DNA from: Geovibrio ferrireducens
GTDB taxonomy: Bacteria; Chrysiogenota; Deferribacteres; Deferribacterales; Geovibrionaceae
Direction: 5' to 3'
DNA: 64,000 bases
Assembly: GCF_026226615.1 (NCBI RefSeq)
Contig: NZ_JAJAPB010000005.1
Coordinates: 124,001 to 188,000, forward strand
Positions 5,436 to 55,775 of the stretch are shown piece by piece. The notes beneath the pieces were generated by a model. It saw only the letters and a program-made list of their open reading frames with translations. It had not been told where the DNA came from and did no database searches. A program made the translations under genes and the position numbers. Each line of letters opens with the position of its first letter. Within the stretch, counting starts at the first letter, position 1.

Positions 5436-5518
5436 TTTTTTATATAATCATAATTATATTTTAAACACCTTAAGCTTGGGATGTCATTGCGAACCCGCGA
5501 AGGGTGAAGCAATCTCTT
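5436..5518. repeat. Tandemly dispersed ~82-bp repeat, copy 1
   Basis: First of three near-identical copies (others at 5633-5713 and 5813-5894). Each begins with an AT-rich stretch (TTTTTATATAATCATAATTA), passes through CACCTTAAGCTTGGG and ends in the half-palindrome GTCATTGC...GCAATCTC (5483-5516). The copies alternate with modular hairpin repeats, so the whole block is a nested composite. Confidence 0.85.
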
Positions 5519-6033: not shown

Positions 6034-6068
6034 TTCCCCCTTTCTTAAAGGGGGAATGAGGGGGATTT
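6034..6068 (-). repeat. Half copy of the C-rich 92-bp repeat
   Basis: TTCCCCCTTTCTTAAAGGGG (6034 onward) followed by GAGGGGGATTT up to 6068 is one hairpin plus the outer arm of the C-rich repeat found at 50210-50303 and 53825-54718, here in reverse orientation. Confidence 0.75.
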
Positions 6069-37640: not shown

Positions 37641-39140
37641 ATGATCAACAATGAAATGTTTCTTAACGACACCATTCTTAATATTTTTAAGAGTACAGAT
37701 GTTGAAACTCTTCTTACAAACTCACTCAAATGTCTGAAGAGGTACATCCCCATTGATATGATAGATCTGTCATATTATTTGGAGGAGGAACACAGTATAC
37801 TGCGTTTATGCACAGTAGAAGAGAACAGAACCTACAAGGATCTTTACATAAAGCTACCTGACAGCATCAAACCAGAAGACTTTAAGCGCGGTTTCCCCAA
37901 TGATTGTGTATATAACTATAATGAAAGAGTAGCCCAGACAGAGAATAAAACCAACTTTATCTGCCCTACGGAGGGCAACTCCTGCATAGTTCTTCAATGC
38001 AGAAACGCAGGGCACGTCATAGGCAACCTTGCGATTAAGGTTTACAAGGAAAATGTCTATACCGATGAGCATAAAAATCTTCTGCGCCTTCTGGCAACCC
38101 CATATACCATGGCACTATGCACTGCCATCACTGCCAGAGAGATGCGCAACAGCAATTACAGCAGTGTGAAAAACAGCATATCGCAGGATTCTGCATTAAC
38201 AAACTTTGCCATGTCCGTGGAGCCTGATATGAACAAGCTTCTCACACAGGCAAAAGAGGTAGCCGAATTTTCAAGCGCTGTTCTCCTCACAGGGGAAACC
38301 GGAGTAGGGAAAGAGGTTTTCGCTAACTTCATACACAGCAATTCAGACAGAAAACACGAGGCCTTCATAAAAATAAACTGTGGAGCAATCCCTGAAACTC
38401 TTATAGACAATGAACTTTTCGGACATGAGAAAGGAGCGTTCACGGGGGCGGATTCATCAAGAAAAGGGCGGTTCGAGCTGGCGCACAATGGAACGCTCTT
38501 TCTGGACGAGGTGGGAGAGCTGCCTTTGAATTCTCAGACAAAGCTTCTGCGTGCGCTCCAGTTCGGGGAAATAGAGCGTCTCGGCGGAGGAAAAGCGATC
38601 AAGGTCAATGTGCGCGTTATCTCCGCCACTAATAAAAACCTGCCAAAAATGGTGAAGGACGGAACATTCAGAGAAGATCTGTTCTGGAGACTGAATGTTT
38701 TCCCCATTGAAATTCCGCCTCTGAGAGAGCGAAAAGGGGATATTCCGATTCTTCTCAGGCATATAACAGAAAAAATATGCAGAAAGTTTGGAATCAAAAA
38801 TATACCCGAAATTGACGGCTCTGTAATGGAGAAACTCATCAGCTATCAGTGGCCGGGAAACGTCAGGGAAATGGAAAACATAGTTGAACGCGAAATCATA
38901 ATGAATCATGCAACAGAGATGAAGTTTGAACATATAAATACCGGAATGCAGTTCAGCAGTCAGCCGGAGCAAATCATCACTGAAAGCAATATCGCACTTG
39001 ACCATGTTATGAAAGCGTACATTCTCAAAACTCTTCATCAGACCAACTGGAGAATAAGCGGAAAAAACGGCGCAGCGTATATTCTGGGAATACATCCCAA
39101 CACACTGCGCCACAGGATGAAAAAACTGGGAATATTTTAA
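37641..39140 (+). CDS. Sigma-54-dependent transcriptional activator with GAF-like sensor
   Basis: The 499-residue protein has a GAF-like N-domain (~1-170), an AAA+ domain (~190-425) and a Fis-type helix-turn-helix (~450-499). The AAA+ domain has Walker A GETGVGKE, the sigma-54 contact loop GAFTGA, Walker B TLFLDEVGEL and the motif QWPGNVREMENIV. No REC domain is present, so it responds to a ligand or redox signal, not phosphorylation. Three cysteines in the sensor (CPTEGNSC, LQC) could be relevant. It faces the lipoprotein redox operon and very likely activates it. Confidence 0.94.
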   Translation: MINNEMFLNDTILNIFKSTDVETLLTNSLKCLKRYIPIDMIDLSYYLEEEHSILRLCTVEENRTYKDLYIKLPDSIKPEDFKRGFPNDCVYNYNERVAQTENKTNFICPTEGNSCIVLQCRNAGHVIGNLAIKVYKENVYTDEHKNLLRLLATPYTMALCTAITAREMRNSNYSSVKNSISQDSALTNFAMSVEPDMNKLLTQAKEVAEFSSAVLLTGETGVGKEVFANFIHSNSDRKHEAFIKINCGAIPETLIDNELFGHEKGAFTGADSSRKGRFELAHNGTLFLDEVGELPLNSQTKLLRALQFGEIERLGGGKAIKVNVRVISATNKNLPKMVKDGTFREDLFWRLNVFPIEIPPLRERKGDIPILLRHITEKICRKFGIKNIPEIDGSVMEKLISYQWPGNVREMENIVEREIIMNHATEMKFEHINTGMQFSSQPEQIITESNIALDHVMKAYILKTLHQTNWRISGKNGAAYILGIHPNTLRHRMKKLGIF

Positions 39141-39144
39141 ATAC

Positions 39145-39227
39145 GGCTTCGCTTCGCACGGCGCAGTGTATTTCCTTTATAATTCAAAATTTGCCATCCA
39201 TGGAAATTTTGAATACACGCTCGCGCC
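39145..39227. repeat. Modular hairpin repeat, permuted copy
   Basis: The right-hand linker GGCTTCGCTTCGCACGGCGC comes first (39145-39164). A hairpin A with new arms (TTCAAAATTT / AAATTTTGAA, 39183-39213) follows, and then the left linker ACACGCTCGCGCC. The order is permuted relative to other copies, as if two adjacent copies had recombined. Confidence 0.65.
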
Positions 39228-39254
39228 GCAGCCCCGGTTTTCTCCCTGTTCAGC

Positions 39255-50209: not shown

Positions 50210-50303
50210 AAATCCCCCTCTGGTCCCCCTTTGCAAAGGGGGAAGCTATTGCGAATAAGAGTAAAAGCACCCTCCTTTCGTAAAGGAGGGCGGGGGAGGA
50301 TTT
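50210..50303. repeat. C-rich 92-bp repeat, solitary copy
   Basis: Outer arms AAATCCCCCTC and GGGGGAGGATTT enclose two hairpins, CCCCCTTTGCAAAGGGGG and CCTCCTTTCGTAAAGGAGG. The 3' spacer ACCTGAGACATCGTTTAC matches that after the copy at 53825-53916. The intervening region between the hairpins differs from the array copies. Length is 94 bases. Confidence 0.88.
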
Positions 50304-50429: not shown

Positions 50430-50436
50430 TAGTTCG

Positions 50437-50466
50437 GAGCAAAAAAAAAGCGGAGCCGAAGCTCCG
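50437..50466 (-). terminator. Second copy of decaheme-gene terminator
   Basis: This 30-base sequence is an exact duplicate of 50563-50592. On the minus strand it is CGGAGC-TTCG-GCTCCG then GC and nine T's, a full intrinsic terminator. The two copies flank the modular repeat at 50475-50566. Confidence 0.85.
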
Positions 50467-50474
50467 ACTTGACA

Positions 50475-50566
50475 ACATCAAACTGCACATCCTGTCAGTT
50501 TGATGTACACGCTCACGCCGAACACGTTCGGCTTCGCTGCGCACGGCGGGCTCCCTCCTTGGGAGC
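50475..50566. repeat. Modular hairpin repeat between duplicated terminators
   Basis: Hairpin A is ACATCAAACTG / CAGTTTGATGT (50475-50506). The linker ACACGCTCACGCC follows, then hairpin B CCGAAC / GTTCGG (50518-50531), the linker CTTCGCTGCGCACGGCG and hairpin C GCTCCC / GGGAGC (50550-50566). Hairpins B and C have arms unlike those of the 5.3-kb copies, yet fully complementary. It is bounded by a 30-base direct duplication. Confidence 0.82.
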
Positions 50567-50592
50567 AAAAAAAAAGCGGAGCCGAAGCTCCG
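50563..50592 (-). terminator. Terminator of decaheme cytochrome gene
   Basis: On the minus strand CGGAGC-TTCG-GCTCCG with nine T's follows the decaheme stop codon by about 27 bases. The UUCG loop makes it very stable. Confidence 0.92.
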
Positions 50593-53824: not shown

Positions 53825-53916
53825 AAATCCCCCTCAGTCCCCCTTTGATAAAGGGGGAAGCTATTGCTGTCAAAGAAGAACCCCCTCCTTTGGCAAAGGA
53901 GGGCGGGGGAGGATTT
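53825..53916. repeat. C-rich 92-bp repeat, unit 1
   Basis: Outer arms AAATCCCCCTC / GGGGGAGGATTT enclose hairpins CCCCCTTTGATAAAGGGGG and CCTCCTTTGGCAAAGGAGG. An 18-base spacer with CATCGGTTA follows, then unit 2. Confidence 0.92.
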
Positions 53917-53934
53917 ACCTAAGACATCGGTTAC

Positions 53935-53982
53935 AAATCCCCCTCTATCCCCCTTTGATAAAGGGGGAAGATATTGCAGCAA
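53935..53982. repeat. C-rich repeat, unit 2 (first half only)
   Basis: The outer arm AAATCCCCCTC and first hairpin (CCCCCTTTGATAAAGGGGG) are present. The second hairpin and closing arm are missing. Ten bases later comes the stop codon of the DUF559 gene, as if that gene replaced the second half of the unit. Confidence 0.88.
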
Positions 53983-53991
53983 AAGAGAATC

Positions 53992-54339
53992 TCAACAATG
54001 TTCATAAATTGCCTGAACAACTCCGTCAATATTAGTCAAAACTTCTGTGTTGCTGAATCTCAGCACTTTGAACCCGTGCCTCAGCAAAAATCTGTCTCTT
54101 TCATTATCTTTATGAATTGCTTCTTCACTGAAATGCTGCCCGCCATCAATTTCTATAACCAACTTAGAGGCAGGACAATAAAAATCAAGAATATAATTTT
54201 CGATGACTTTCTGCCTGTAAAACTGCAGTCCCTTTATTTGTTTTCTTCTGATTTTTGACCAAATCAGCAACTCAGCATCGGTCATGTTCTTCCTGAGTGC
54301 TCTGGAGAAAGATTTAAGCTTTTTATTGTATCTGATCAT
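53992..54339 (-). CDS. DUF559 endonuclease-like protein within repeat array
   Basis: The 115-residue protein of the DUF559 family (very-short-patch-repair/restriction-endonuclease-like fold) contains RKNMTDAELLIWSKIRRKQI, FYRQKVIENYILDFYC and LVIEIDGGQHF. The DFY...EIDG acidic pattern with Q-H corresponds to a PD-(D/E)XK-type nuclease core. Family function is not settled. The ATG abuts repeat unit 3 directly, so its ribosome site (GGGGG, four bases upstream) is supplied by the repeat's outer arm. Repeat units flank it on both sides. No methylase is adjacent. Confidence 0.9.
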   Translation of the reverse strand: MIRYNKKLKSFSRALRKNMTDAELLIWSKIRRKQIKGLQFYRQKVIENYILDFYCPASKLVIEIDGGQHFSEEAIHKDNERDRFLLRHGFKVLRFSNTEVLTNIDGVVQAIYEHC

Positions 54340-54718
54340 AAATCCCCCTCAGTCCCCCTTTAATAAAGGGGGAGGCTATTGCAGTCAAAGAAGAACTCCC
54401 TCCTTTTGCAAAGGAGGGCGGGGAAGGATTTCAAAAGCGCATCGGTTAGGAAATCCCCCTCAGTCCCCCTTTAATAAAGGGGGAAGTTGTTGCAGTCAAA
54501 GAAGAACCCCCTCCTTTTGCAAAGGAGGGCGAGGGAGGATTTCAGCAACTCATCGGTTAGAAAATCCCCCTCAGTCCCCCTTTATCAAAGGGGGAGGCTA
54601 TTGCAGCCAAAGAAGAACTCCCTCCTTTTGCAAAGGAGGGCGGGGGAGGATTTCAAAAACGCATCGACTGCAAAATCCAACTCAATCCCATTTTGATAAA
54701 AGGAGAAAGTTATTGCGG
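54340..54718. repeat. C-rich repeat array, units 3 to 6 (111-bp period)
   Basis: Units start at 54340, 54451, 54562 and 54673, exactly 111 bases apart. Units 3-5 are full 92-mers (54340-54431, 54451-54542, 54562-54653), each with outer arms and two hairpins. Spacers of 19 bases share GCATCGGTTAG or a close variant. Unit 6 is a decayed first half that runs into the GGDEF gene and provides its stop codon (54710-54712). The hairpin loops vary (AATA, ATCA; TTGC) while stems hold. Confidence 0.93.
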
Positions 54719-55673: not shown

Positions 55674-55712
55674 AAATCCCCTCTCCTTTTAAAAGGCGGG
55701 TCGGGGAGGCTT
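55674..55712. repeat. Short relative of the C-rich repeat
   Basis: AAATCCCCTCTCCTTTTAAA followed by AGGCGGGTCGGGGAGG keeps the outer arm and one hairpin (CTCCTTTT/AAAAGG) of the C-rich family in compact form. It lies just upstream of the REC-GGDEF gene. Confidence 0.6.
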
Positions 55713-55775
55713 CATAAAAAATCCGCGTCTACAGCTTTATATATACATTATTTACGGAATGTGCCAAAGAAAAAT

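Follow-up and report, generated by a model that had tools for sequence, protein, structure and literature searches.

Genes for the small DUF559 nuclease are paired with C-rich palindromic hairpin repeats, and this pairing is confirmed as general across many bacterial phyla. In the window, by which we mean the whole 64-kb stretch of DNA analyzed here, the gene is embedded in an array in which 92-bp palindromic units recur with a period of 111 bp. We consider it probable that the two form a nuclease–repeat pair that works like a REPtron made of unrelated parts, in which the DUF559 gene sits between palindromic repeats and its product would mobilize the units. Few unexplained sequences of bacterial genomes are as common as small palindromic repeats, and RAYT, the best-known repeat partner enzyme, is tied to GTAG-tagged repeats. 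Here, a class of untagged C-rich repeats travels, in many phyla, with one small nuclease family that lacks a function. The pairing suggests that DUF559 is the long-missing partner of a repeat class, which it would either spread or ride on, and that REPtron-like pairs evolved around an enzyme of different chemistry. It provides DUF559/YcjD with a testable role and the C-rich repeats with a candidate mobilizer, and the question of what spreads such repeats can now be tested directly with a 115-residue protein and a 92-bp substrate. A full-text search of the open-access literature for DUF559, judged by title and abstract, found no description of the pairing.

Each unit consists of an arm (AAATCCCCCTC), a hairpin, a linker of about 20 nt, a second hairpin, and an arm (GAGGGGGATTT). 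A repeat half comprises the arm AAATCCCCCTC with a pyrimidine/purine hairpin, and a full unit comprises two such halves in inverted orientation. On the 5′ side of the DUF559 gene, full units at 54340..54431 (abutting the start codon), 54451..54542, and 54562..54653 lie exactly 111 bp apart, as the preliminary description had claimed, and a degraded half unit at 54673..54712 closes the right end of the array; the start at 54673 keeps the spacing but does not belong to a full unit, as had been supposed. On the 3′ side, a half unit (53935..53986) directly follows the gene and a full unit, complete from arm to arm, lies at 53825..53916. A solitary full unit at 50210..50303 and half units at 6034..6068 (a hairpin with the GAGGGGGATTT arm) and 55674..55713, all reported earlier, proved real; all of these units are given on the + strand. 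The unit is predicted to fold into a branched structure, with z of about −3.4 as RNA and −3.7 as DNA (z=-3.4 and z=-3.7 for the unit at 54562). The window contains 12 hairpins compared to 0–2 in twenty dinucleotide shuffles, while in its genome BLAST matched the unit about 46 times and the hairpin pattern was matched 49 times, compared to once for the reversed control.

The spacers of 19 nt are near-copies of one another. The motif noted in them before is present, but in two variants, CATCGGTTA in two spacers and CATCGACTG in the third. A CRISPR or other repeat–spacer array was ruled out because the spacers are not unique, and a known structured RNA was ruled out because all Rfam matches fell below threshold. 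Since the dispersed units of the window's genome often have conserved flanking sequence in common, by which they can be grouped, the repeat may be longer, with the 92-bp unit as its core.

The DUF559 gene (53992..54339, − strand) is the sole copy in the window's genome and encodes a YcjD-like protein of 115 aa. Its match to the PF04480 profile (E=4e-37) scored 126.8 bits against a curated Pfam cut-off of 20.6. The AlphaFold model (pLDDT 90.6) was matched by Foldseek first to PDB 3hrl, then to 3r3p, the homing endonuclease I-Bth0305I (E=1e-4, TM 0.6–0.7), and more weakly to 1vsr (Vsr). The catalytic-type positions E, Q, D, E, D, and H are kept in 96–98 of 98 homologues, and the conserved D52, E63, and D65 are predicted to belong to the active site. 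The predicted structure thus has a Vsr/EDxHD-type PD-(D/E)XK fold in which acidic and basic residues of the active site are conserved, in agreement with the core proposed for it previously. YcjD itself was assigned to the PD-(D/E)XK superfamily in 2005 (PMC1189080).

The association of the gene with the repeats was examined using a generic hairpin with an arm of at least 6, a 5′ side composed entirely of pyrimidines, and CCC included. This definition was prompted by the first loci and was applied to 80 later DUF559 loci before their flanks were read; these loci come from many phyla and are the closest relatives of the query, so that they are not phylogenetically independent. Hairpin density was 8.8/kb at 0–50 nt from DUF559 genes compared to 0.08/kb at 2–10 kb. 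A hairpin lay within 200 nt of 70 of 75 DUF559 genes (93%) and of 55 of 714 other ORFs of the same loci (7.7%; Fisher p ~1e-59), which bears out the enrichment across genomes that the preliminary description had anticipated. Hairpins lay on both sides, with the same limit, for 46/75 DUF559 genes (61%) and 2/714 other ORFs (0.3%; p ~1e-52). These hairpins were found at none of 21 UvrC control loci, none of 20 Y1 transposase loci, and none of five loci with weaker DUF559-type matches, which lie mostly in long ORFs. The other positions and ORFs of the same loci, together with the UvrC loci, ruled out a background of hairpins near any gene.

The same kind of hairpin accompanies all six short DUF559 loci of the window's family, which occupy four different genomic sites, and all 30 Acinetobacter loci. 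Among more distant members in a plasmid collection, hairpins were found in 9 of 11. These include E. coli ycjD, whose 3′ end extends into a palindromic, C-rich repeat (a 226-bp query covering it matched a median of nine places per genome), and the Sinorhizobium meliloti pSymB gene, whose flanking repeat occurs at 21 places on the replicon. Two plasmid records place the gene within operons, between sufB/sufC and paaD/paaZ. Protein identity and flank similarity of the DUF559 loci were correlated (Mantel rho 0.35, 0/1000 permutations), to which base composition may contribute. In another clade, L037 (G001:C9:119219-119512), L106, L116, and other Bacteroidota-type loci have flanks with a second repeat type; in some of them, a GCGAAGC-like mini-hairpin separates the hairpin from the arm, and at L037 the reading frame of the nuclease includes repeat sequence.

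The repeats are rare where the gene is missing, and not equally common with and without it. Hairpin-pattern counts were obtained for 51 genomes of the window's phylum. Within the window's family, six genomes with a short DUF559 gene contained 49, 39, 71, 81, 12, and 3 hairpins, compared to 1 (in the same genus), 0, 1, 0, 17, and 10 in genomes without it (p=0.01); all other families of the phylum had 0–2 per genome. In 149 Acinetobacter genomes, the median was 11 hairpins with a full-length DUF559 gene and 0.5 without (Mann–Whitney p=5e-14, uncorrected for shared ancestry), although 13 of 62 genomes without it still contained at least five. The hairpins of DUF559-negative genomes, both these and the 17 and 10 in the window's family, could be remnants. 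As a correlation has no direction, the DUF559 gene may instead depend on the repeats.

Comparison with sister species, as had been proposed, revealed empty sites. One of them (G022) has the gene at the equivalent site, preceded by half a unit on its 5′ side and followed by five full units on its 3′ side, three of which are 96–98% identical. The arrays thus expand and shrink. The other sister species (G021) lacks the gene and the whole array at the equivalent site. The half unit at 55674 is missing from both species, and the solitary unit at 50210 is common to the window's genome and G022 and missing in G021. Around the empty sites (at 55674 and at the array), flanking sequence has diverged too far for a target-site duplication or insertion junction to be read. 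The stop codon of the G022 gene is directly adjoined by a full unit, so the half unit is no designed boundary of the gene; the cut unit noted earlier at this 3′ end is most simply explained by a deletion in the window's lineage. The earlier reading is partly supported: the repeats are enriched beside the gene and rare without it, the active site is conserved, and the architecture resembles that of a REPtron.

The dS of the DUF559 gene between the window's genome and G022 is 0.06, compared to a median of 1.2 for neighboring genes (dN/dS 0.48, based on few changes). No neighbor had a dS below 0.48 except one poorly aligned ORF (61% identity, dS 0.08), which is unlikely to be a real gene. Since some intergenic stretches are also more than 90% identical, the comparison is based on coding sequence. 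Given this low dS and the cassette missing in G021, the gene has moved recently. In the protein tree, Deferribacterota DUF559 copies of the window's family fall in separate clades, and in related genera the gene occupies different sites. In Acinetobacter, one genomic site is common to 26 of the 30 best-scoring loci, so the gene is mostly inherited in place there. In E. coli genomes, the sapF–fabI interval (L228, L242) contains either ycjD or the eefRABCD operon; because ycjD-less strains carry this efflux operon there, E. coli was rejected as an empty-site system.

Recent movement is also what would be expected if DUF559 were a free-standing homing endonuclease for which pre-existing repeats serve as landing sites, spreading by gene conversion without multiplying them. 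The nearest solved folds after 3hrl are those of I-Bth0305I and Vsr, and a gene nearly identical between two species at the same site is what homing predicts; the observations that bear on spread into empty alleles by conversion, itself hypothetical here, are the empty allele of G021 and the low dS. However, because the repeats are rare in genomes without DUF559, they hardly seem independent of it; most genomes have many units and only one or a few DUF559 genes, and flanking repeat sequence covaries with the protein. On these grounds, we regard homing into the repeats as unlikely and favor a DUF559 that would multiply them.

Another possibility is that the repeats serve a Vsr-like host gene for DNA repair or anti-phage defense as regulatory or terminator hairpins, and are not part of a mobile pair. 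On the gene strand, the unit arm GAGGGGGATTT (54340..54350, − strand) is followed immediately by the ATG at 54339, which lies directly against the unit at 54340 as described earlier, and 36 of 98 homologous loci have GGGG in the 30 nt that precede the conserved start. Since the start codon directly follows it, this arm is probably the Shine–Dalgarno sequence of the gene. In the predicted RNA, the Shine–Dalgarno-like arm is paired in the minimum-energy fold only (z=-1.95), so that gating of DUF559 translation by the repeat hairpin is only suggested. Terminator-like hairpins of the unit on the gene strand, the Vsr-like fold, and weak PADLOC matches to defense nucleases are also consistent with a regulatory role. 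However, dozens of units are located well away from the gene, which is itself at different sites in related genera and missing in G021. The gene is moreover flanked by hairpins on either side, and these form arrays of as many as five units, of which some are near-identical. This makes the explanation improbable.

Y1 transposases occur in 21 of the 51 genomes of the window's phylum, and one contig (G011:C2, L123) has seventeen copies of equal E-value and bit score, an IS200-like expansion. No Y1_Tnp/RAYT gene (PF01797) was found in the four repeat-richest Deferribacterota genomes (the window's own, G000, together with G022, G026, and G027), so a resident RAYT cannot account for their repeats. 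That another resident enzyme, a RAYT or an IS transposase, spreads the repeats with DUF559 as a passenger is very doubtful, and its RAYT version is largely refuted: Y1 transposases are found in many bacteria and the longer outer flanks common to dispersed units may mark them as cores of larger elements, but the richest genomes lack Y1_Tnp, the Y1 loci lack these hairpins, and the pairing, in many phyla, is with DUF559.

In a mobilization of the repeats by DUF559, the gene with its flanking repeat halves would be the autonomous element, and the dispersed units without a gene would be non-autonomous copies. Most likely, DUF559 would recognize the arm–hairpin structure, perhaps extruded or single-stranded at replication forks, and would nick or cut at its edge. 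Repair from another copy would then multiply the units in tandem, copy them to new sites, and carry the gene between homologous sites. The recognition, the cleavage, and the copying route proposed here are inferred.

Small stand-alone GIY-YIG nuclease genes (~100 aa) of the window's family lie among CGTC-type repeats (GTCATTGCGAACCCTGAAAGGGTGAAGCAATC) at L226 (G000:C13:20479-20700), L227, L199, L201, and L204. Such repeats were found within 450 nt of all five small GIY-YIG loci compared to 2 of 21 UvrC loci, and they occur in the window at 5483, 5679, 5860, 50113, and 53776. Because CGTC repeats have been reported to lack a dedicated transposase (PMC3733652), the small GIY-YIG nuclease may be their missing partner. 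At L198 (G011:C1:351384) and L200 (G010:C6:32308), a GIY-YIG domain is apparently inserted in what resembles a four-helix-bundle (23S-intervening-sequence-like) gene. Two more dispersed repeat families, GGCGCAGT..CATCCATGGA..GCGCCGCAG and AAAAAAAAAGCGGAGCCGAAGCTCCG, are present in the window at 39140–39231, 50433–50466, and 50559–50592. The broadest reading, in which DUF559 is the dedicated mobilizer of pan-bacterial C-rich palindromic repeats, a second alliance beside RAYT–REP, with small GIY-YIG nucleases and CGTC-type repeats as a further one, is tentative, and we place it slightly short of an even chance. If it is true, stand-alone nucleases of several unrelated folds each evolved REPIN-like partners.

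Compared to known systems, the DUF559–repeat pair exhibits several likenesses and differences. The repeat of the S. meliloti pSymB gene may belong to the Rhizobium-specific intergenic mosaic elements (RIME) or to similar GC-rich palindromes; to our knowledge, RIME has no known mobilizer. The pair shares with homing endonucleases (EDxHD/Vsr-like, I-Bth0305I, PDB 3r3p) the catalytic fold and signs of recent movement between equivalent sites. Unlike I-Bth0305I-type enzymes, however, DUF559 has no intron or intein and no DNA-binding domain beyond its 115 aa, and its gene is linked to multicopy repeats. Vsr acts together with a cytosine methylase, whereas no cytosine methylase was seen beside the window's DUF559 gene. 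Vsr and YcjD, the latter itself a DUF559 protein, belong to the same superfamily as the window protein (PMC1189080).

The pair can also be compared with the REPtron, in which REP/REPIN sequences are coupled with RAYT (TnpA-REP; PMC3733652, PMC2817692, PMC3116915). The enzyme here is a PD-(D/E)XK nuclease, while that of the REPtron is an HUH Y1 transposase (PF01797), of which the window's genome has none; the genomes richest in these repeats are without RAYT. The window units have a AAATCCCCCTC foot, and a GTAG or CGTC foot is absent from the copies listed. Since the HUH transposase and the GTAG tag were looked for and not found, the pair is not a REPtron by membership. It nevertheless resembles one in four respects: the repeats are dispersed intergenic palindromes, both systems have inverted hairpin pairs whose foot is conserved, copies of the repeat stand on either side of a nuclease gene of low copy number, as was found for DUF559, and repeat and enzyme covary.
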